A model generated the notes under the pieces. The model worked only from the letters and a program-made list of their open reading frames with translations, ran no database searches and had not been told where the DNA came from. DNA of 43,982 bases, from the NCBI GenBank assembly GCA_902806435.1, contig CADCWO010000174.1, positions 1 through 43,982 on the forward strand. The letters are read 5' to 3'. The stretch's first letter is position 1. Each line of letters begins with the position of its first letter. Below are positions 4,471 through 43,982 of the stretch, piece by piece. The translations under genes were made by a program, and so were the position numbers. This stretch comes from an uncultured Synechococcales cyanobacterium (GTDB lineage Bacteria; Cyanobacteriota; Cyanobacteriia; Thermosynechococcales; Thermosynechococcaceae).

Positions 4471-4582
4471 TGACATGCCTACACTCACGTTAGAAGCTTT
4501 GAGACTAAATAAGGTAAATACTTTTATTTGTAAGGATTGAGACTGAAATCCCATGTAGGCCAACTCTTAAATGGAGGCAGAA

Positions 4583-6601
4583 ATGTCCCACGCGAGGTCC
4601 ATCATGGCAATGAACGTTACCCAAAAGCTGATCAAGTCTCACTTGGTTTCCGGGTCAATGCTTCCGGGTACAGAAATTGGGCTCAAAATTGACCAATCGC
4701 TTACCCAGGACGCCACGGGGACTATGGTAATGCTGGAACTAGAAGCGATGGGTCTTGAGCGGGTAAAAACTGAGCTTTCCGCCCAGTATGTTGATCACAA
4801 CCTGCTGCAAACCGATTATAAGAATGCCGATGACCATTTGTTTCTGCGTTCCGCCTGCCAGCGTTTCGGCATCTGGTACAGCCGACCCGGTAATGGTGTT
4901 AGCCATCCCGTGCACATGGAACGGTTTGGTGTTCCTGGCAAAACACTGATTGGATCAGACAGTCATACTCCCGCTTCAGGCGCTCTTGGTATGTTGGCTT
5001 TCGGGGCTGGTGGGATTGATGTGGCAATGGCGATGGCTGGTGAACCAATGTTTCTCAAGATGCAAAAAGTCTTAGGCGTTAAGCTTACCGGCAAATTACC
5101 CGACTGGGTAAGTGCTAAAGATGCCGTCCTCGAAATGCTGCGACGCTATGACGTCAAAGGTTGCCGGGGCATGATTATTGAGTACTACGGGCCAGGGCTT
5201 GAATACCTAAGCGCCATGGATCGGCATGTGATTGCCAACATGGGTACTGAGCTGGGAGCAACCACCACCGTTTTCCCGTCGGACCAGGAGGTGAAGCGTT
5301 TTCTTACGGCTCAAGGTCGTGGTGAGGATTGGGTTGAGTTAGTCCCCGATCAAGGGGCTGGATATGATCTGGATGACGAAATCAACCTTTCTGAGTTAGT
5401 TCCCCTGATTGCTTGCCCCAGCAGTCCAGGCAATGTAGTGACGGTCAGAGAAGTTCAAGGGCGACCCATTAATCAGGTTGTGATTGGCTCATCGGCTAAC
5501 CCCGGCTTGCGAGATTTCTGGATTGTCAGTCAGATTGTCAAAGGGCGTGTCACCCATGACCGGGTCTCTTTTGACGTTAATCCAACTTCCCGTCAAATCG
5601 TTGAAACTTTAGCGGTGATAGATAATGCTTTTCTAAATCTGATCCAGGCAGGGGCACGTTTTCACCAAGCAGGTTGTATGGGTTGTATCGGTATGGGGCA
5701 GGCTCCGGCCTCTGATCAGATCTCGCTGCGAACGGTGCCGCGTAACTTTCCTGGGCGCTCCGGCAATGCCGATGATCAAGTGTATTTGTGCAGCCCTGAA
5801 ACTGGCGCTGCCTCAGCGTTGACGGGAGAAATTACTGACCCCCGCGATCTAGAAAAAATTTACGGCATGACTTACCCTAAGTTCGTGCCGCCAGCAAAAG
5901 AGCTGATCAACACTGAAATGCTCGTACCACCGCCAGAGCATGGCAGTCATGTTCAGTTGGAAAAAGGTCCAAATATTATGTCATTTCCGCAATTTGGGGC
6001 ATTGCCGGATCGGGCTTCTGTTCCTGTAGTGCTGAAAGTGGGTGACAACATATCCACGGATGAAATTCTACCAGCCGGAGCGCGGGTTCTCCCTTATCGA
6101 AGTAATATTCCAGGAATTAGCGAGTTTGTTTTTTCTGTAGTTGATGAAAGCTTCTCCCAGAAAGCAAAAGCAGCCCAAGAAGAATTTGGTGGTCACGTTG
6201 TCGTTGCTGGCAACAACTACGCCCAGGGTTCGAGCCGGGAGCATGCGGCGATCGCACCCAAATATTTAGGTCAGGTGGCCGTACTCGCCAAATCCTATGC
6301 TCGGATCGGTTGGCAAAATCTGGTTAACTTCGGCATCATGCCCCTAGAATTTGTTAACCCTGAAGATTACGACACGATTCAGCAAGGAGATGAACTGGAA
6401 ATGGTTGGATTACGTGACGCATTGACGGAAGGGCATCCTATTTCAGTCAAAAATAAAACACAGGGTCTGATATATGCAATGACGCACAGCGTCAGCCCTC
6501 GTCAAGTCAAAATTCTGCTCAACGGTGGGCTGATCAATGAATTTAAACAAAACTTGAATCTTAAGCAAGACTTAGGCCTTGAGGCAAGCTCCAAGAAATA
6601 A
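4583..6601 (+). CDS. Aconitate hydratase, short 'Aquifex-type' aconitase family
   Basis: A 672-residue protein with aconitase domains in order: alpha/beta core (residues 5-400; SDSHTPASGALGMLAFGAGG at about 130), then the swivel domain (495-665; GDNISTDEILPAGARVLPYR, YAQGSSREHAA, IGWQNLVNFG). It is far shorter than AcnA (about 890) and differs from AcnB in domain order, fitting the putative short aconitase family. The CxxC pair of the [4Fe-4S] site is present (GCMGCIGMG, C365 and C368), but the position of the first cluster cysteine (IGSCTNS in other aconitases) reads IGSSANPG, with Ser304. The ATG at 4583 has GGAGG six bases upstream; the ATG at 4571 has none. The citrate/isocitrate role is inferred from the family. 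Confidence 0.88.
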   Translation: MSHARSIMAMNVTQKLIKSHLVSGSMLPGTEIGLKIDQSLTQDATGTMVMLELEAMGLERVKTELSAQYVDHNLLQTDYKNADDHLFLRSACQRFGIWYSRPGNGVSHPVHMERFGVPGKTLIGSDSHTPASGALGMLAFGAGGIDVAMAMAGEPMFLKMQKVLGVKLTGKLPDWVSAKDAVLEMLRRYDVKGCRGMIIEYYGPGLEYLSAMDRHVIANMGTELGATTTVFPSDQEVKRFLTAQGRGEDWVELVPDQGAGYDLDDEINLSELVPLIACPSSPGNVVTVREVQGRPINQVVIGSSANPGLRDFWIVSQIVKGRVTHDRVSFDVNPTSRQIVETLAVIDNAFLNLIQAGARFHQAGCMGCIGMGQAPASDQISLRTVPRNFPGRSGNADDQVYLCSPETGAASALTGEITDPRDLEKIYGMTYPKFVPPAKELINTEMLVPPPEHGSHVQLEKGPNIMSFPQFGALPDRASVPVVLKVGDNISTDEILPAGARVLPYRSNIPGISEFVFSVVDESFSQKAKAAQEEFGGHVVVAGNNYAQGSSREHAAIAPKYLGQVAVLAKSYARIGWQNLVNFGIMPLEFVNPEDYDTIQQGDELEMVGLRDALTEGHPISVKNKTQGLIYAMTHSVSPRQVKILLNGGLINEFKQNLNLKQDLGLEASSKK

Positions 6602-7413: not shown

Positions 7414-7677
7414 GACTCACTATGGTATTGGAGTTTGCTTGCCCCAACGCTAACCAACGACCTGTGGATTTGTCAATGCGACAAATAAATTTCAATGAAA
7501 GCGAAAGGTTGTGCGATCGCATCTAGGCCGAAGGTGATGATCAAGAAATAGCAACAGCTAATTAGCTTTCCCTGCTTAAGCATCTGTATCTCTTGGAAGA
7601 TTTGCGGTCTTAACTCCTATGAAAGACTACAAGAATAAACATAGTCTTCACGCTGAACCTACTGCTAGGAGGACGTT

Positions 7678-8028
7678 ATGGGTATTGATGATTTGTTTAG
7701 AGGGTTACGCGGTGACCGGGATAACCAGTCAGGAGATAGAGACCGGGAGGAGGACCGCAGGTATAGAGACCGAGAGTATAGGTACCGGGACGAGGGCCGA
7801 GAGTCCAAGCACCGGGATGATGAGGACCGGGAATATCGGTACCGGGATGAGGAGCGGGAGTCCAAGCACCGGGATGATGAGGACCGGGAATATCGGTACC
7901 GGGACGAGGAGCGACGCTATAGAAGCGACGATGATGACGATGACGATGAAGGGCGGCGTTATAGAGATCACGAGGATGAGCATCGTCGGCACAGGAACCA
8001 TGATGACGATGATGATGACGATGATTGA
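7678..8028 (+). CDS. Highly charged Arg/Asp/Glu/Tyr-rich repeat protein, function unknown
   Basis: A 116-residue protein with perfect SD AGGAGG (7666-7671) seven bases... upstream of the ATG, so it is very probably translated. The N-terminus MGIDDLFRGLRGD looks like a short amphipathic helix. The remainder is almost entirely R, D, E, Y, H and K: two near-identical tandem copies of the 19-residue unit ESKHRDDEDREYRYRDEER and two Asp runs (DDDDDDD) near the C-terminus. There is no hydrophobic core, so it should be intrinsically disordered; metal or nucleic-acid binding is conceivable but not shown. Long frames in the other two phases and on the opposite strand are by-products of the repeat. Confidence 0.75.
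   Translation: MGIDDLFRGLRGDRDNQSGDRDREEDRRYRDREYRYRDEGRESKHRDDEDREYRYRDEERESKHRDDEDREYRYRDEERRYRSDDDDDDDEGRRYRDHEDEHRRHRNHDDDDDDDD
7801..7914 (+). repeat. Two tandem copies of a 57-bp coding repeat
   Basis: Units 7801-7857 and 7858-7914 differ at only a few bases (for example GGGATGAGG against GGGACGAGG). A partial third copy precedes them (from about 7771). The period is a multiple of three, so copy-number change keeps the frame. Confidence 0.85.
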
Positions 8029-8178
8029 CCTTTCATCGGAAGGCTATAGGCAGAAAGTAGTCAAGTAGTTCAGGTGCCGCGTAGGTCTCTTTTAATTCGT
8101 TAGGCTAGAGGTTGGCTTATTACTCTTAACTGTCTATGTACCACATAGACAAGGGTCGTCGTTGCGCAGGAGGTACTG

Positions 8179-31449: not shown

Positions 31450-32203
<754 letters not shown>

Positions 32204-34810
32204 ATGCTTGAATCTTACCGTCATCATGTTGCAGAGCGAACTAAACTGGGTATCCCTGCCTTGCCACTTAATGCCCAGCAAACAGCTGAACTGTGCGAGT
32301 TACTCAAGCATCCCTCTGAAGAGGCAGAAGATTTACTTGCCTTACTGCGTGAGCGGGTTCCCCCAGGGGTTGATGAAGCGGCCTACGTGAAGGCTGCCTT
32401 CTTAAGTGCGATTGCCCAAGGGGAAGCACAGAGCCCCTTAATTGCTCCTCAGGCAGCGGTGGAACTCTTAGGGACAATGATTGGTGGCTATAATGTGCAA
32501 TCACTTGTGGAGCTGTTGAGCCATCCAGAGGCAGCCTTAGCCAGTAGCGCCGCCGCAGCCCTAGGTAAGACACTACTAGTCTTTGACGCTTTTAACGATA
32601 TTTGGGCGTTAGCGGAAACGAATCCCTATGCCAAACAAGTTGTGGATGCTTGGGCAGTAGCAGAGTGGTTCACAACTCGGCCTACCCTGGCCGAGGCAAT
32701 TCAGGTCACGGTTTTCAAAGTTCCTGGCGAAACGAACACCGATGATCTTTCCCCAGCCTCTCATGCTTCTACCAGGCCAGATATCCCCCTGCACGCATTG
32801 GCGATGTTGGAGTCCCGAATGCCCGGGGCGATGGTGGAGCTAGCTGCCTTGAAGCAAAAAGGGTATCCCGTAGCCTACGTGGGAGATGTGGTAGGTACAG
32901 GGTCATCTCGTAAGTCAGCAATCAACTCTTTGCTGTGGCATATCGGCCAAGACATTCCTTGTGTGCCGAATAAACGGACGGGGGGATACATTCTGGGAGG
33001 AGCGATCGCTCCTATCTTCTTCAATACCGCGGAAGACTCTGGTGCACTGCCAATCCAATGTGACGTCACCCGTATGGAAACCGGAATGGTGATCACAATC
33101 CACCCTTACAAGGGTGAAATCACCGATGAATCCGGTGCTGTGATTTCCACGTTTACTCTCCAGCCCAACACAATCGCGGATGAAGTTCGCGCTGGAGGTC
33201 GCATTCCTTTAATTATTGGTCGAGGCCTAACGGATAAGATCCGTACTGCTTTAGGAGCAGAAACCAGCCTGGTATTTATCCGGCCTCAATCTCCTGTTGA
33301 TAGCGGTAAAGGCTTCACCCTAGCTCAAAAGATGGTCGGTAAAGCTTGTGGTTTACCAGGCATCAGGCCGGGGACAGCCTGCGAACCGCTAATGACCACG
33401 GTTGGCTCCCAAGATACTACTGGGCCGATGACCCGTGATGAACTGAAGGAATTGGCTTGTCTAGGCTTCAATGCCGACTTAGTGTTGCAAAGCTTCTGCC
33501 ACACTGCCGCCTATCCTAAACCGGTTGACATTCAAACCCACCAGGAGCTACCAGACTTCTTCTCTCAACGAGGTGGAGTTGCCCTGCGCCCAGGAGATGG
33601 CATCATCCATTCCTGGTTAAACCGGATGCTGCTACCGGACACCGTAGGGACAGGAGGTGATTCTCATACGCGCTTTCCGTTAGGAATTTCTTTCCCGGCC
33701 GGCTCTGGGTTGGTGGCCTTTGCCGCTGCTTTAGGTGTGATGCCTTTAGATATGCCGGAATCCGTTTTAGTCCGGTTTAAAGGGCAGATGCAGCCGGGGA
33801 TCACCCTGCGCGACTTGGTGAATGCGATTCCTTACGTTGCTATCCAGCAGGGACTATTGACCGTTGAGAAGGAAAACAAAAAAAACGTCTTCTCTGGGCG
33901 GATCATGGAAATTGAAGGCTTACCAGACTTGAAAATTGAGCAGGCGTTTGAACTCACAGATGCGACTGCCGAGCGCTCCTGCGCTGGCTGCACAATTAAG
34001 CTAAGTTCAGAAACGGTGGCTGAGTACCTGCGCTCCAATGTTGCTTTGTTGAAAAATATGGCAGCGCGGGGCTACCAGGATGCCAGAACTATTCTGCGGC
34101 GGGCAGCCCAGATGGAACAGTGGCTGGCAAACCCCGTACTGATGGAAGCTGATGCCGATGCGGAGTACGTGGAAGTGATCGAGATTGACCTGAACCAAAT
34201 CACAGAGCCAATCGTTGCCGCTCCCAATGACCCAGACAACATCAAGCTCTTGTCTGAGGTGGCCCATGACCCGATTGATGAAGTGTTCATTGGTTCCTGT
34301 ATGACCAACATCGGGCATTACCGGGCAACAGCTGAGGTTCTAACAGGTGAACCCCCAGTGGAGGTGCGCCTGTGGATTTGCCCGCCAACCCGGATGGACG
34401 AACAGCAATTGCGTTCAGAGGGGGTTTACAATGCTTTTGCTGCTGCCGGAGCCAGAACAGAGCTCCCTGGTTGTAGCCTCTGTATGGGTAACCAAGCGCG
34501 TGTCGCAGATAACACCACCGTTTTCTCGACTTCTACCCGCAACTTCAATAACCGGATGGGTAAAGGGGCTCAGGTTTACCTAGGTTCCGCAGAGCTAGCA
34601 GCAGCCTGTGCAATGCTGGGTCGGATTCCAACCGTTGCCGAGTATCGAGAGATTGTGGCTCAAAAGATTGCTCCTCTTTCGGGTGACATCTATCGCTATC
34701 TCAACTTTGACCAAATTGCTGGCTTTGAAGACGAAGGCCGGGTGATTTCTCTGGAGGAAATGCCAAGAATTGAGGATATTTTAGGAATGCCTACGGGGGT
34801 CGGCCGTTAA
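32204..34810 (+). CDS. acnB: Bifunctional aconitate hydratase 2 / 2-methylisocitrate dehydratase (AcnB)
   Basis: An 868-residue protein, the usual AcnB length and domain order: HEAT-like N-terminus (1-150, [16 protein letters not shown]), swivel domain (about 165-375, [19 protein letters not shown] and [15 protein letters not shown]), then the core. All three [4Fe-4S] ligands are present, C699 in [12 protein letters not shown] and C757/C760 in [11 protein letters not shown]. It is the main TCA aconitase in cyanobacteria. ATG 32204 is used because MLESYRHHV is the family start; the TTG at 32162 is too far upstream. It is divergent from glnB. Confidence 0.96.
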
Positions 34811-34966: not shown

Positions 34967-36820
34967 CTAAATAGGTGTGGCTAGAAAAGCGTGGGTTTGA
35001 CCATCAATCGTGCCTGTGCCAACTATCTGCCCCAGGTCATTGATGGCATTGGCAGATTCCAGAGCCCACCCAGAGTTAGCCGGAATCAGGCTATTAAGAT
35101 TTTGCCTTGTTCCACCCTCATATAAAAAGGGACGATTAATATCATCCGCGATTCTTGAATAGCCAACGACCTGACCTAAATTATTTATGTCATTGGCAGA
35201 ACTCTCACCGACTAGCGGATCAAGGTCTTGGATAGTCCCGTCTTCATCCCACAAGACGGCAGTCGTCTCACCATCATAGGAACCGCCAACAACCTGGCCT
35301 AGGTCATTAATGCCCTCAGAATAGGTGTAGTCCTGATTGGTCAACCCAGCTAACTTCGTCGCCCCGCCATTCTTGTTCCAACGGTATGCCTGAGCGCCAT
35401 ACTGGTCACTCGAGCTTCCAGTCACCTGGCCAGAGTTGTTGATATCCCTCACATTGTCGTACTTGTAGTCGCTGCTCGGAAAATCAATGGTGGTGAAACC
35501 TGTATTTTTGTCCCAAAGAAACGAGCTAGCTGGAAACTCATAAACCTGCTGGCCAGACTCGTCAAAATAGATAGTTGATGAATTGCCTACCACTTGACCT
35601 TGATCATTAATTCCTTCACCGGCGGTATCAAAGGCAGCAGGGTTTTCGCCGTCAGGTACACCCAGGCTCTTCATACCTGCTTTCTTACTCCACAGGAAAG
35701 CGCGATTGCGCCCGCTTGAGGTTTCTGCCACACCCGTGACCTGACCAGCATTGTTGATCGCAGTAGCTTGACTGAAGCCACCTCCAAGGGTACCGAGATC
35801 TTCCTTTCCCATGCTCTTTTCCCAGATAAAAGCGTGAGAACTATAGCTATCCTCCTCACCAGGTTTTGCTACGGAGCCAACCACCTGGCCAGCGTTGTTG
35901 ATGTCTGTCACAGACCCATACTCACCAACCCTACCGATGTCAGTGATGGCATAGCGATCAAAGGGATCGTTGTCCACGATTTCCAAGGTGGCTGTCTTTT
36001 GCTCCCCGATCGCGGTCCCACTGCTGGGGGCAGCTAAGCTTAACTGGATCGTCTCTGGTCCCTCAACCAATCGGTCATCAATCAGAGGAATCTGGATGGT
36101 TTGTTCTACTTCCCCTTCGGCAAACTTAACGCTCACTGGCTTTTGCCGGTAATCGGCTAGCGTTGCACTGCCCTCTGACAGAGTGATCTTGGCGCTGGCA
36201 GTACTATCACTGCGACCGCTGCGAGTCACAGTGACGGCGGCAATTGGGGTGTCATCTTCGCGCACACTAAAATTGGCAGCGCTAAATTCCAAGGTACCGG
36301 CAGTCAGAAAGTTGGCCTTGGTGATGGTGCTGCGCTTAATGCCTGGCAAAATTGCCAAGAACTGTCCAGTCAGCTTGTCCGTGATAATGGTGTCAGCAAC
36401 ATGGTTTCCCTTGCCTTGAGCAACCTTTAAGTCACTCAGGTTGATCCCCTTTGCTAACTCCAGCCAGTCTTCGCTGTTAAAGTCTGTGATGACATCTGCT
36501 GTAGCTAAGGTAGTGTTGCTAATGCTACTTGAGAGCACAAAGCGATCGCTCTCCCTGCCGCCTGTGAGGATATCCCGTCCACTACCTCCTAAAAGCCTGT
36601 CTCTACCATCACCGCCTTTCAAGCTGTCAGCGCCAGCCTTACCTTTAAGTTGATCGTTGCCTGTGCCACCTTTTAAGCGGTCATTGCCGCTACCGCCTTG
36701 CAATCGGTCACTGCCTTGATTGCCGTAGAGTTGGTCATCACCATCCCCGCCTAAAATATAATCATTGCCACTACCCCCTCTGAGTGTGTCATTGCCAGCA
36801 GTGCCTTCAATCGTTGCCAT
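34967..36820 (-). CDS. RTX/Calx-beta/HAF-repeat secreted protein
   Basis: A 617-residue protein. Residues 1-95 hold about nine RTX calcium-binding nonapeptides (GGSGNDYILGGDGDDQLYGN and similar), then VITDFNSEDWLELAKGINLS, typical of RTX C-terminal caps. Residues 178-288 form a Calx-beta domain (DDTPIAAVTVTRSG, PETIQLSLAAP, EIVDNDPF). Residues 292-617 carry seven HAF extracellular repeats, with motifs such as DINNAGQVVGS, AINNAGQVTGV, GINDQGQVVGN and AINDLGQIVGT. There is no N-terminal signal peptide; such proteins leave through type I secretion, though here the RTX block is N-terminal instead of C-terminal. Role probably surface or adhesive. Confidence 0.88.
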   Translation of the reverse strand: MATIEGTAGNDTLRGGSGNDYILGGDGDDQLYGNQGSDRLQGGSGNDRLKGGTGNDQLKGKAGADSLKGGDGRDRLLGGSGRDILTGGRESDRFVLSSSISNTTLATADVITDFNSEDWLELAKGINLSDLKVAQGKGNHVADTIITDKLTGQFLAILPGIKRSTITKANFLTAGTLEFSAANFSVREDDTPIAAVTVTRSGRSDSTASAKITLSEGSATLADYRQKPVSVKFAEGEVEQTIQIPLIDDRLVEGPETIQLSLAAPSSGTAIGEQKTATLEIVDNDPFDRYAITDIGRVGEYGSVTDINNAGQVVGSVAKPGEEDSYSSHAFIWEKSMGKEDLGTLGGGFSQATAINNAGQVTGVAETSSGRNRAFLWSKKAGMKSLGVPDGENPAAFDTAGEGINDQGQVVGNSSTIYFDESGQQVYEFPASSFLWDKNTGFTTIDFPSSDYKYDNVRDINNSGQVTGSSSDQYGAQAYRWNKNGGATKLAGLTNQDYTYSEGINDLGQVVGGSYDGETTAVLWDEDGTIQDLDPLVGESSANDINNLGQVVGYSRIADDINRPFLYEGGTRQNLNSLIPANSGWALESANAINDLGQIVGTGTIDGQTHAFLATPI

Positions 36821-38530: not shown

Positions 38531-39655
38531 TTAGGATTTCAGCGCAACTGGTGTGCCGTTGGCTGCCAAGTCTGCTCCTGCGGTGAGGGCTAAGAGTACT
38601 GACTCTGTTTGGGCACCAACCCGGTCCCAGTTATAGTGGTCCAGAACAGCCTGGCGTGCTTGGCCAGCAAGCCGCTGGTAAAGATCCCGTTGTTGCTTCA
38701 GTTGCAGTAGTCGTTGAACTAATCCCTCAATATCGCCAACCGCAACTGGCAAGCCAAAGCTACCTGCTAGCCGGTGTAGTTCTGGAAAATCTGTGTAGAC
38801 AATTGGCAAGCCGGATGCTGCATAGTCGAATAGCTTTAGAGGTGAGAAGAAAAAACCGTACTCAGACCAACTCAACTCATGATACAGGCACAGCCCGACA
38901 TCTGCTGAGGCAAATAACCGGGGGACTTCTAAGTAGGGAACAGGCGGGTAAAAATGCAGGTTGCTGGGAATCTGGTCCGCCGCTAAATCTGGGGGCTCGC
39001 CTACCACAGCAAAGCCAATTTCTGGGTCTAAGGATTGCAAGCGTTCAGCACATGCCAGGACAAGCTGAAAGTCATGCCAGGGATACTGAGTTGAGCCTGC
39101 CCAAAGAACCCGAAACTGCTTTTCCAGCCCCGGAAAAACAGTTGGATCACGCAGGTCGGGATAGAACAAACTTGGGTCTGAGCCGTTGGGGACATGAACC
39201 GCCTGGTTAATCCCCAAGTCGTGGGCATAGCGCATGAGGGGTTCCGAGACGCACAAAGCAGCACTTGCCTGGTGGGCACTTAACTTACGTCCGGGAGCAC
39301 CGAGGCGATCGCGCCAGCGCTTTTTACCTTGCAGCACCGCTAGCTCATCAAGGGTGGCGTTGATCTCCCAAACAATTGGCTTTTCAGATTTATATAGCCC
39401 AGGCAGCATTGGTGCTATTTCCCAGCCCACGCGCCCATCAATTCGAACATAGAGTAGTTCAGCTTCGCGCATCAGTTCTGCTAGGCCGCCCACAGAGCGT
39501 GGTAAGCGCTTATGGAACTGCGAACCTTGCTCAGGTGCCAGTGCTAGCAGTTGATGACCTTGGGAGGCTAGGTACTGTGACACCTGATAGGTGTGAACTG
39601 AACCACCCCCTCTTGGAGGAGTCGTATTGACTTTATGTAAAAATCCGATCTTCAC
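38531..39655 (-). CDS. Glycosyltransferase family 4-type protein
   Basis: A 374-residue GT-B glycosyltransferase. The N-terminal half begins KIGFLHKVNTTPPRGGGSVH (Gly-rich acceptor loop). The C-terminal half has VPNGSDPSLFYPD, FRVLWAGSTQYPWHDF and the nucleotide-sugar signature region FFFSPLKLFDYAASGLPIVY. It transfers a sugar to the growing polysaccharide or its lipid carrier; the sugar is unknown. GTG 39655 is chosen for GGGAG nine bases upstream and because most relatives start at this KIGFL strand; it overlaps the ligase gene by 23 bases. Last gene of the operon. Confidence 0.9.
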   Translation of the reverse strand: MKIGFLHKVNTTPPRGGGSVHTYQVSQYLASQGHQLLALAPEQGSQFHKRLPRSVGGLAELMREAELLYVRIDGRVGWEIAPMLPGLYKSEKPIVWEINATLDELAVLQGKKRWRDRLGAPGRKLSAHQASAALCVSEPLMRYAHDLGINQAVHVPNGSDPSLFYPDLRDPTVFPGLEKQFRVLWAGSTQYPWHDFQLVLACAERLQSLDPEIGFAVVGEPPDLAADQIPSNLHFYPPVPYLEVPRLFASADVGLCLYHELSWSEYGFFFSPLKLFDYAASGLPIVYTDFPELHRLAGSFGLPVAVGDIEGLVQRLLQLKQQRDLYQRLAGQARQAVLDHYNWDRVGAQTESVLLALTAGADLAANGTPVALKS

Positions 39656-41051
39656 CAGTTGCTTCTCCCGAAAGTGACTTGTTGTGCCCATGGGATCTAG
39701 GACTGCCGCTCTGGAAGGCCAGTTCTTGCCAAGAGCTAGAAACACGGGACTGCTGGAGCTCAGCTAAAGCACTGCCCAACCAGATGAAATAAAACCAGAG
39801 GGATGCCGCCATCCAGCTGAGGGGAGTTGCCGCGCAGAGCAGGTACAGAGCAACTAGGCTGGCAAAGGCCCGTGCTGCCATCGCGTTACCGCGAAGTGCT
39901 GGAGTATAAAAGGCCCCCAGCGTCGATAGAAGTGCTCCCAAGAAGACGATGAAGCCAACCACACCATGCAAATATAAGACCGAGGCATAGGTTGAGAATG
40001 AACCAAGCTTAATGTCGTAGGTGTACCAGCGCACTGAACCGCGAATAATTCCCCACCCCATCCAGGGCGATTCCTGCCAGGCTTCCAGGGTTTTACGCAC
40101 GACCAGCTCTCGGTCTCCAGAGGATGCTGCCCGCGCTTTAGTAAAAATAGTCAGTGGCTGCTGCACCAGCTCAGCGGGGGTGAGACGGAACCAACTACTG
40201 AGGCCAGCGATCGCGGCGGTTCCCCATAGCAAAATCTGCCGCGAGAGGTTGCTGCGGAAAGCTGCCATCACTAAAAGTGCTAGGGGTAAGCAGACCCAAG
40301 CTGAACGACTAAAACTCAACAGTAGCGCTAAGCCGGAGCCTGCAAGGGCTAGGCGGCGTAAGGAACGGTTTTTCTCCCCCAGACAGATCAACATGCTGCA
40401 CACGGCACAGGCACCAAGGATCGGCGGGTCAGCAGTATAGAGAGCAGTTCGGGGCAGGGGGATGCCAAAAAAAGACTGAATATCAGCGAAAGAAACACGT
40501 AAGCTGAGGCGATCGCCAGGAATCAGAGCAGCTAGCAACGGCGTATAACCCTTGATACCCAGGAACAGCAGCACCAGCACCGCTGCAATACTGAGCAAGT
40601 AACCCGCCGCCATCCAGGCAACTGCCCGCGTAATCGTCTGGACTCGTAGGCCAATCCAACAAGGCAAGCTGAGGCAGGCAAAAATCAGGAAGTAACTCTT
40701 GAGAAAGGTGACGGTCTGCGCCGCAACGTTTGACACACTAATGCCGACGTCACTGAGACCAATTGCACCCGTTATGAACATCACACAGGCCATCAGGAAC
40801 CAAGCCCAAGCACAGGTCGGTAGTGGTGCTCTCAGCAGTTTATCCAGTCTGAGGCTAGTAGCTAGTAAACCAACTAGCAGCAGCGGGTAGAGCAAAACCT
40901 GAATACCCAATAGCCACCAAACGGGTGTGAGCACGGCAGTCCAAAAAATGATCTGCTCAGCAGAAGAGCGGGTTGTCAGTGGCAAGTTGTTGGAAGGGTA
41001 ATGATCTACGACCGGCCGCAGGCCATTGCCGGAGGAGGGAATAGGATGCAC
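39633..41051 (-). CDS. O-antigen ligase/polymerase-like membrane protein (Wzy/WaaL superfamily)
   Basis: A 472-residue protein with about 11-12 membrane segments and a large loop between the later ones (about residues 290-345), where GDRELVVRKTLEAWQESPWM and GWGIIRGSVRWYTYD occur, the usual Wzy_C position. It joins polysaccharide repeat units or ligates them to a carrier. GTG 41051 is used, six bases after the acyltransferase stop. The strongly hydrophilic C-terminal 40 residues are probably cytoplasmic. Confidence 0.85.
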   Translation of the reverse strand: MHPIPSSGNGLRPVVDHYPSNNLPLTTRSSAEQIIFWTAVLTPVWWLLGIQVLLYPLLLVGLLATSLRLDKLLRAPLPTCAWAWFLMACVMFITGAIGLSDVGISVSNVAAQTVTFLKSYFLIFACLSLPCWIGLRVQTITRAVAWMAAGYLLSIAAVLVLLFLGIKGYTPLLAALIPGDRLSLRVSFADIQSFFGIPLPRTALYTADPPILGACAVCSMLICLGEKNRSLRRLALAGSGLALLLSFSRSAWVCLPLALLVMAAFRSNLSRQILLWGTAAIAGLSSWFRLTPAELVQQPLTIFTKARAASSGDRELVVRKTLEAWQESPWMGWGIIRGSVRWYTYDIKLGSFSTYASVLYLHGVVGFIVFLGALLSTLGAFYTPALRGNAMAARAFASLVALYLLCAATPLSWMAASLWFYFIWLGSALAELQQSRVSSSWQELAFQSGSPRSHGHNKSLSGEATGEDRIFT

Positions 41052-41057
41052 CGTTTT

Positions 41058-41666
41058 CTACTGGTAAAAATGCTTAACCACTTGCTGAGGATCACCAATC
41101 ACAACCACCCCAGGGGGCACAGATTTGCGAACAACTGCTCCTAGGCCAACTACACTATCAGGGCCAATTCGCACACCTTTCATCACGGTTGCCCGCGCTC
41201 CTACCCAGACATTCCGCTCCAGAATAATCGGAGCAGCCACTTTAGCCCCAGGACTACAGTGGCGCAGGTGCGGTTCCAGATTGTGATAGTCAGTATCGAC
41301 AATGTAGCAATCGGAAATTAAACAGTCATCCCCAATCGTCACCGACTTTTGACAGCCAATCCAAGGACCATTCAGTAGGGCATTACAGCCGATCACCACC
41401 TCGCCAGAACCAGAGATTCGGACGCGCTTAGCAAGGCGAGTGCCGCTGCCAATTACCACCTTGACGCCACCCCGGATATTCAGAGAGCCTTTGATCATTA
41501 CCCCTGGAGCCAGGGATACATTCGGGTAACGCAGGCCGTAGAACAGGCGCTTGCTCTCAAAATAAAACTTTGTTAAGGCTTTGAGGAGCGGATGCTTGAC
41601 TTGGGCCACTGGCTCAACTGGAGCGCTAGGATTTGGAGTGGCAGCTATAGGTAATGGTTGGGTCAT
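41058..41666 (-). CDS. Left-handed beta-helix (hexapeptide-repeat) acyltransferase
   Basis: A 202-residue protein. After a 45-residue variable N-terminus, repeated hexads (VVIGSGTRLAKRVRISGSGE, VTIGDDCLISDCYIVDTDYH) lead to a loop with the catalytic-type His (DTDYHNLEPHLRH), then WVGARATVMKGVRIGPDSVV and the typical VPPGVVVIGDPQQVV end. It O- or N-acetylates a sugar of the exopolysaccharide. The ATG overlaps the Wzc-like stop as ATGA, so the two are translationally coupled. Confidence 0.9.
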   Translation of the reverse strand: MTQPLPIAATPNPSAPVEPVAQVKHPLLKALTKFYFESKRLFYGLRYPNVSLAPGVMIKGSLNIRGGVKVVIGSGTRLAKRVRISGSGEVVIGCNALLNGPWIGCQKSVTIGDDCLISDCYIVDTDYHNLEPHLRHCSPGAKVAAPIILERNVWVGARATVMKGVRIGPDSVVGLGAVVRKSVPPGVVVIGDPQQVVKHFYQ

Positions 41667-43681
41667 ACATTCACCGGCGAACCTTCGCGCTGGTAGTGGT
41701 AAGTGTCTGCTTTCATATCGACGCCATTAATCGCTAACGCGACAATCTCTGCCTTGTGCTGCGCCAGTTGCAGCAAACTTGCCTTAACGGAAGTGCGATC
41801 GCTGGTGCCCGGTCGTACTACAAACAGTACATTCTGGGTAGCAGAGATCATTAAGGCAGTTTCACTCGTGAGGCTAAGGGGCGCACTATCCACTAAAACG
41901 TAGTCGTAGCATCCCGCGGATTCGGCTGCTGCTAGATGTTGCTCAAAACGGCCCCGGGCCACCAAGTCCACGACTTTACCGCTTCTAGGAGCACTGGGTA
42001 GGGCATCCAAACCTGGCCGGATTGGCACGGGTTCCTGTCCAAGCGGTTGATCACAGCCTAGCCGGCGACTAAGTTCCGCCTGCCGAAAGTCACCGTCAAC
42101 GACCAGCACCCGGAACCCCAGATCCACTAGGGCTGATGCTAGCCCCAAAGTCACTGACGTCTTCCCCTCCCCAACCGTTGAACTGGTAATCAGCAAGCGA
42201 CGATTTGCTAGTGTCAACAAGCTAATTGCCGAACCTAGCCATTGGAAGGCCACTTCCATGTCTGCCCCTAAGCGCTTGAAACGTGGAATTTGTACCACCA
42301 CCGGAAACTCAACGTCTTGCAGGTCCTTAGCACTTAGCAGAGGATTGCGAGCTTCTAATAACAATGCCAGGGCGGCACTGCTAAATAGGGCTGCCAGGAT
42401 ACCCGCGATTGCGGTTAGCTTTACTTTTGAGGGAGCACGTCTAACGACTGCTGTATCCAGGGCTTGGACGTTGGGATAGACATCAAAGGCATTCACTTTA
42501 GCTTTCTGCACTTGCGCGACTAGACCTTTAAAGATCCCCTCGGCAATATCGTACTGTCGCTGTAATTCTGCTAGCCGAGCCTGACTAACTGGGATCGCTC
42601 CTAGGGAGCCACGCAGCTGACTAATCCGGCTAGCTAGTTGAGCAGCCTGGCTTTGTTGCATCTTGGCCTCACTCTCTGCCAGGATTAACCTTTGAATTAA
42701 AGCGACTCGGCCTTCTTTACCACTGCCGACGGTTGTATCTACGCCCTCTGTGTTGGCAGATCCCTGGGCAACGTACTGCTGCAAACGTTGCTGCAAGCTA
42801 TCTTGCTGTACTAGTAGCGCTTGAACTGACTCATGCTGATCCGTAAACCGAGCTTGATTCTCGACTAAAGCTGCTTCAACTTCTGAAAGCTTTTGACGCG
42901 TAAACTGGAAGTCCTCATTCTCACCCAATTGAAGAGACCGAATCGCCTGATCGGGTGTCATGTTCAGCCGGTTCGCCAAGGTTTGTGTCAACGTCTTGTT
43001 GGACGATGCTTGGGCTAAGGCCTGAGACTGGGCGTCGGTTAAGCTACCGAGCAAAGCAACTAGCTCCTTAGTTTGTTCTTCGCTGTTAACTAAGCCAGAA
43101 GCCTCTTGAAATGTTGCCAGATTGGTTTGCGCCTGACGCAGATTTCGGCGAGCCTGCTCCAGCTCCCTCTGGCCAAACTTCTCCCGCACAGCAGCATCGT
43201 CTTGGCGCAACTCATTCAGCCGCTGTTGATAAAGATTAGTCAAGCCAGTTGCGCGATCGCTTGCCAGTTCGGCGCTGGAACCAGATACTTCTAGCTCAAT
43301 AATTGTAGATTGCTCCTGGGGCGAAACTTGAAACAACTTTTTGTACTGGCCAAGATTGGCGTACTCAGCTTTCTCAGGATCGGAGATCCACAACCGCTTT
43401 ATCAGGTCATCGCTGGTCATGATCGATGCTTGAACATTTAAGGGATTGACCTGGGTTGAAAAGGTGGTTTCACCATTTTTGATTGAGCCGAGGGTACCCA
43501 AACTGGCATCAAGATTGCTGGTTGTACTTGGCAGAATTAGCTGGGTTTTCGCGGTCCACACACGAGGGACTGAGGCAATGGCAGCGATCGTAGCAACTAG
43601 CAAAGTAAGGTTCAGACCTATTAAGGGCTTCCAATGCCTCAGTACAATTGCAGATGCTTTGTTCATAAGTTGGGCAGTCAT
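41663..43681 (-). CDS. Polysaccharide co-polymerase/tyrosine autokinase (Wzc/BY-kinase type)
   Basis: A 672-residue protein. An N-terminal Wzz segment (membrane helix about 18-38, LIGLNLTLLVATIAAIASVP) is followed by a long coiled-coil periplasmic part (150-390), a second membrane helix (about 422-442) and a cytoplasmic BY-kinase ATPase: Walker A SSTVGEGKTSV, A' LVVDGDF and B YDYVLVDSAP. The C-terminal Tyr cluster is very short (TYHYQREG). It sets chain length and couples export to phosphorylation. The ATG at 43681 is used; M6 is a possible alternative. Its start codon lies inside one copy of the 82-bp direct repeat. Confidence 0.92.
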   Translation of the reverse strand: MTAQLMNKASAIVLRHWKPLIGLNLTLLVATIAAIASVPRVWTAKTQLILPSTTSNLDASLGTLGSIKNGETTFSTQVNPLNVQASIMTSDDLIKRLWISDPEKAEYANLGQYKKLFQVSPQEQSTIIELEVSGSSAELASDRATGLTNLYQQRLNELRQDDAAVREKFGQRELEQARRNLRQAQTNLATFQEASGLVNSEEQTKELVALLGSLTDAQSQALAQASSNKTLTQTLANRLNMTPDQAIRSLQLGENEDFQFTRQKLSEVEAALVENQARFTDQHESVQALLVQQDSLQQRLQQYVAQGSANTEGVDTTVGSGKEGRVALIQRLILAESEAKMQQSQAAQLASRISQLRGSLGAIPVSQARLAELQRQYDIAEGIFKGLVAQVQKAKVNAFDVYPNVQALDTAVVRRAPSKVKLTAIAGILAALFSSAALALLLEARNPLLSAKDLQDVEFPVVVQIPRFKRLGADMEVAFQWLGSAISLLTLANRRLLITSSTVGEGKTSVTLGLASALVDLGFRVLVVDGDFRQAELSRRLGCDQPLGQEPVPIRPGLDALPSAPRSGKVVDLVARGRFEQHLAAAESAGCYDYVLVDSAPLSLTSETALMISATQNVLFVVRPGTSDRTSVKASLLQLAQHKAEIVALAINGVDMKADTYHYQREGSPVNV

Positions 43682-43752
43682 TCATGGCTCATGCTTAATC
43701 TAACTTGATATTGAGTTTCAAGCTGGTAAAGTTTAGGTTATCCATGCTTATT
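43671..43752 (+). repeat. 82-bp direct repeat, copy 1 (covers the start of the Wzc-like gene)
   Basis: Identical over all 82 bases to 43897-43978. It includes the first codons of the Wzc-like gene (ATG and three more, minus strand) and the 71 bases upstream, so it carries its ribosome-binding region and possibly its promoter. Confidence 0.92.
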
Positions 43753-43896
43753 AAAAAGTGCTGGCTGGATTTCATTAAGTAGTCAAACCGCGATAGTAAT
43801 TCACGCTTTATTCAATTTCTAGCAAGTGATTTTTATTTTTTTTGGCTAAGTTACTGGAAACCTTGTCCTGACAGGGTTTACAACCCCTTATCTAGC
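43753..43896. other. 144-base spacer between the 82-bp repeats
   Basis: AT-rich, no gene. A 9-bp imperfect hairpin (43858-43879, loop CCTG) lies near its right end; on neither strand does a T-run follow it. Confidence 0.6.
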
Positions 43897-43978
43897 TGGG
43901 CAGTCATTCATGGCTCATGCTTAATCTAACTTGATATTGAGTTTCAAGCTGGTAAAGTTTAGGTTATCCATGCTTATT
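43897..43978 (+). repeat. 82-bp direct repeat, copy 2
   Basis: Perfect copy of 43671-43752, 226 bases away. On the minus strand it has the same ATG (43907) but the frame (MTAQLDKGL) stops after nine codons, so it encodes only an aborted start of the Wzc-like protein. It ends four bases before the window edge. Confidence 0.92.
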
Positions 43979-43982
43979 CTAA

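Follow-up and report, generated by a model that had tools for sequence, protein, structure and literature searches.

Short direct duplications that arise spontaneously are known from the intergenic DNA of bacteria, and draft assemblies are known to contain contigs that end inside repeats. The locus described here shares features with both. It lies at the right end of the window, by which the whole stretch of DNA that was analysed is meant; its 43,982 bases constitute the entire contig C174 of a 278-contig draft genome of 4.79 Mb.

As in spontaneous intergenic duplications, two identical copies lie close together in apparently non-coding DNA and in one strain only. They are separated, however, by a unique spacer of 144 bases, so that the arrangement as seen is not a simple head-to-tail one, and the right boundary of the duplication falls almost at the contig end.

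As at draft contig ends that lie in repeats, copy 2 forms the tip of the contig, and 16 of the 78 contig tips sampled in this assembly begin, within 5 bases, in a sequence present more than once in the part of the genome that was sampled (identities of 80 to 100%). Contigs of this assembly thus often break at repeats. In contrast, the two copies here lie on one contig at a distance of 226 bases, and the repeat is followed by four further bases, whereas elsewhere the exactly matching tips stop within their repeats.

The repeat and its gene neighbourhood

Positions 43671-43752 and 43897-43978 were identical over 82 bases at an offset of 226. Both the perfect 82-bp repeat and the 226-bp period given in the preliminary description were therefore confirmed, as was the nearness to the contig end, the last base of the window being the last base of the contig. 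Leftward extension by three bases gave a match of 85 bases that includes one mismatch. On both sides the copies had different flanks, the right side of copy 2 consisting of four bases only.

Among 100 Markov-1 random sequences as long as the window, the length of the longest exact direct repeat had a mean of 14.8 and a maximum of 18 bases, while 200 random sequences modelled on the last 1500 bases yielded a mean of 10.0 and a maximum of 13. Compared with a random maximum of 18, the 82 exact bases exclude chance. Tandem Repeats Finder reported no array at the 82-base repeat; 1.4 periods of 226 bases are visible before the contig end. The GC content of the repeat copy was 0.366, similar to that of the spacer (Table 1), while that of the gene was 0.515.

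Among close exact repeats with a length of 40 bases or more, the window contained one other, of 47 bases, at 7801/7858 in repetitive coding sequence. This region (7768-7937) carries 57-base tandem repeats in a short arginine/aspartate-rich open frame, and they are held by the overlapping frames 7619-8068 and 7678-8028.

Judged from the protein families of its four genes (Table 1), the operon next to the repeat appears to be an ordinary polysaccharide cluster, and polysaccharide would be its product. Beside the cluster, positions 34967-36820 encode a protein of 617 residues, in which RTX calcium-binding repeats, a Calx-beta domain and a match to DUF3466 were recognised. An aconitase-like gene matching aconitase B models was observed at 32162-34810, and positions 4571-6601 hold what we take, by eye, to be a second aconitase-like gene on the contig.

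Table 1. Coordinates of the repeat, the contig tip and the polysaccharide cluster in the window.
Feature	Position	Strand	Basis or remark
Glycosyltransferase	38531..39745	-	family match
Wzy_C (O-antigen ligase/polymerase family) protein	39633..41051	-	family match
Hexapeptide-repeat acetyltransferase-like protein	41058..41666	-	family match
First cluster gene, chain-length-determinant/kinase-like protein	41663..43681	-	AAA_31; GNVR below its cut-off
Repeat copy 1, gene-proximal, 82 bases	43671..43752	-	sequence identity
Unique spacer between copies, 144 bases	43753..43896	-	GC 0.368
Nine-codon frame MTAQLDKGL*, starts in copy 2	43878..43907	-	translation
Repeat copy 2, gene-distal, ends 4 bases short of contig end	43897..43978	-	sequence identity
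Last four contig bases CTAA, sole evidence for right boundary of copy 2	43979..43982	.	2/4 positions differ from the bases after copy 1

Start codon of the first gene and comparison with relatives

From its mechanical start at 43681, inside copy 1, the first gene comprises 672 codons. This ATG within the repeat is in frame and directly follows an in-frame stop. In six homologues with identities of 37-62% (L125, L034, L035, L004, L036 and L038), a methionine was found 8-10 residues ahead of a conserved N-terminal motif, [RE][HY]W. In the window's protein, Met6 (43666-43664) lies 9 residues ahead of the motif and Met1 14 residues ahead. The distant homologue L039 has a methionine 8 residues ahead and L037 has none there, while the alignment of L131 to the first protein starts only at residue 29.

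Based on this comparison, which covered methionine (ATG) positions only, Met6 seems a likelier start than Met1. With a start at Met6, the repeat would end four bases upstream of the start codon, in the untranslated leader, and the whole repeat is probably untranslated. The statement that the repeat includes the start codon is doubtful and probably wrong: an in-frame ATG does lie inside it, but the homologues favour a start outside. The nine-codon frame reported for copy 2 does exist; given a Met6 start, it is probably incidental, an accident of copying that ATG.

The polysaccharide cluster of G048, a distant relative (contig C31), contains four genes in the same order as in the window. The order was matched by gene size and the evident similarity of the translations, with tblastn employed for the first gene and a genome search for the second. 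The first proteins of the two clusters are 62-63% identical. However, the 683-base gap upstream of the G048 cluster holds no direct repeat, and when the 82 bases were compared by blastn with the 1.5 kb preceding the G048 gene, only 10-base matches were returned, which is the chance level.

A search of 388 genomes of the class for close homologues of the second gene (E 1e-70) gave four besides the window's own, G048 among them. In the neighbourhoods of the remaining three, a first-gene homologue (E 1e-30) was present only in L131. Upstream of seven homologous first genes (up to 700 bases each), exact direct repeats did not exceed 10 bases.

In the readable genome the repeat sequence occurred at two places only, both in the window; some short contigs were read as N (four of 80 fetched end pieces), and copies there would escape detection. 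For the wider searches, the 82-base repeat with its surroundings served as a 343-base query. Neither the plasmid collection nor any of 28 other genomes of the order contained a DNA match, and the phage collection gave only a 29-base, chance-level match. Compared with 57 other relatives, the upstream region yielded one match, limited to coding sequence. The 58 genomes listed included no second one of the genus. A dispersed repeat or mobile element family was rejected on the basis of this lack of further copies beyond chance in the readable genome, the 28 genomes of the order, plasmids and phages. Nothing on this locus was found in the literature, which was available in part.

Contig ends and the origin of the duplication

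Contig ends of the same assembly were used as a control. In 78 contig ends (76 readable fetched pieces plus the two of the window) and in 20 interior stretches of 20 kb, we counted exact direct repeats of 40 or more bases lying within 600 bases. Such repeats were present at three of the 78 ends, compared with none in the 400 kb of interior sequence. Apart from the window's end, these were the start of contig C2, with a 276-base tandem repeat, and the end of contig C16, with a 39-base tandem array. Both repeats are genuine tandem arrays of biological origin, the former presumably resembling a signalling-domain array, as read by eye from its sequence.

Contigs of this assembly often break at repeats, and no special cause has to be invoked for a close repeat at the end of one. 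The preliminary description had named recent duplication, slippage and an artefact near the contig end as possible origins; the set was the right one, and within it the other contig ends somewhat favour a genuine local duplication.

The two ends (L021 and L073) of another contig, C10 (5746 bases), share a direct repeat of about 190 bases with few differences, 98 bases of it exact. This might reflect a circular molecule or a tandem duplication.

On balance, we consider it more likely than not that the window ends in a genuine local duplication on which the assembly broke, without special function. We infer that such a duplication exists in the DNA of the organism and that it arose by an ordinary error of replication or recombination. 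Just upstream of the operon's first gene, 82 bases of untranslated leader would have been directly duplicated in this strain alone, the copies standing 144 unique bases apart, and the repeat would stand at the contig end because the assembly broke there. The length of the repeat far beyond chance, its restriction to two places in the genome, the excess of close repeats at contig ends, the genuine arrays at the other two such ends and the frequent breaks of this assembly at repeats are consistent with this reading. Against it stand the last 86 bases of the contig, which alone carry copy 2, and the 47-base repeat at 7801/7858, which indicates that close repeats also occur away from contig ends.

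No continuing contig was found in the readable genome either, which likewise speaks against a genuine duplication. Searches with the repeat and with the last 14 bases matched only the window, and by synteny the G048 gene upstream of the operon (a 375-residue protein) was unmatched in the window's genome.

The main rival, which we regard as unlikely, is an assembly artefact, in which a chimeric read or faulty end-extension or scaffolding copied 82 bases to the tip of a contig from an organism with a single copy. The position of copy 2 at the very end of the contig and the missing continuation both fit this explanation. Furthermore, scaffold gaps of 10 N were observed in two of the 76 readable contig-end pieces and in none of the 400 kb of interior stretches. 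One of these gaps was flanked by an unmerged 15-base duplication. False duplications may thus arise in this assembly, which also counts against a genuine origin.

An artefact is, however, less easily reconciled with the genuine arrays at C2 and C16 and with the junction at 43896/43897, a clean join of unique spacer to repeat in a window that contains no N. Four other tips also agree with repeated sequence up to their final base: three are identical to another contig end from base 1 (over 94, 84 and 75 bases), and that of C16 is identical to its own array over 85 bases. Wrong tip bases thus seem uncommon in this assembly.

The same tips bear on a further explanation, which we judge improbable, namely a tandem array with a 226-base unit (the 82-base repeat plus the 144-base spacer) whose copies the assembler could not count, so that the contig stops after 1.4 units. 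An array of this kind would leave a contig ending much as observed, and C16 also ends inside one. To the right of copy 1, however, the sequence is AAAAAGTGCT, the four bases compared being AAAA, while copy 2 is followed by CTAA and then the contig end. As tip bases are usually sound, with the checkable ones elsewhere exact to the last base, the divergent CTAA favours a real boundary and would argue mildly against a simple 226-base tandem array.

Tests for function and significance

The proposal that doubled promoters could change operon output was not supported. In a scan with the sigma-70 consensus, which may miss other promoter types, two matches were obtained, one per copy, compared with 1.2 expected. 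Both were + strand matches and faced away from the operon; on the operon strand of the repeat no promoter-like site was found. With matches on the + strand only and a count at the chance level, promoter duplication was rejected.

No terminator-like site was found in a scan of the repeat region, and a comparison of 43000-43982 with Rfam yielded nothing at an E-value of 1 or below. Fold z-scores for the copy and the spacer on either strand ranged from -0.61 to 0.45, no better than shuffles. A structured RNA was rejected on both grounds.

In view of these results, it is very improbable that the repeat works as a doubled leader or promoter, or as a switch prone to recombination, and so alters operon output, even with the repeat directly upstream of the likely start codon and 82 identical bases, a length sufficient for recombination: the operon strand lacks a promoter-like site, neither Rfam nor folding points to a structured leader, and the seven homologous genes carry no such upstream repeat. 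Hardly any credence is given to the specific case in which recombination between the copies drops the 226-base unit, alters transcription or translation of the operon and gives rise to mixed populations.

As it stands, the repeat has little significance, and being located in the last bases of a contig, it should be checked against the reads before biological meaning is assigned to it. A real duplication could lose 226 bases through recombination between its copies, with the likely start codon left untouched. If the duplication is real and also affects the operon, it would represent one strain-level case of the duplication of a regulatory region before a polysaccharide cluster.
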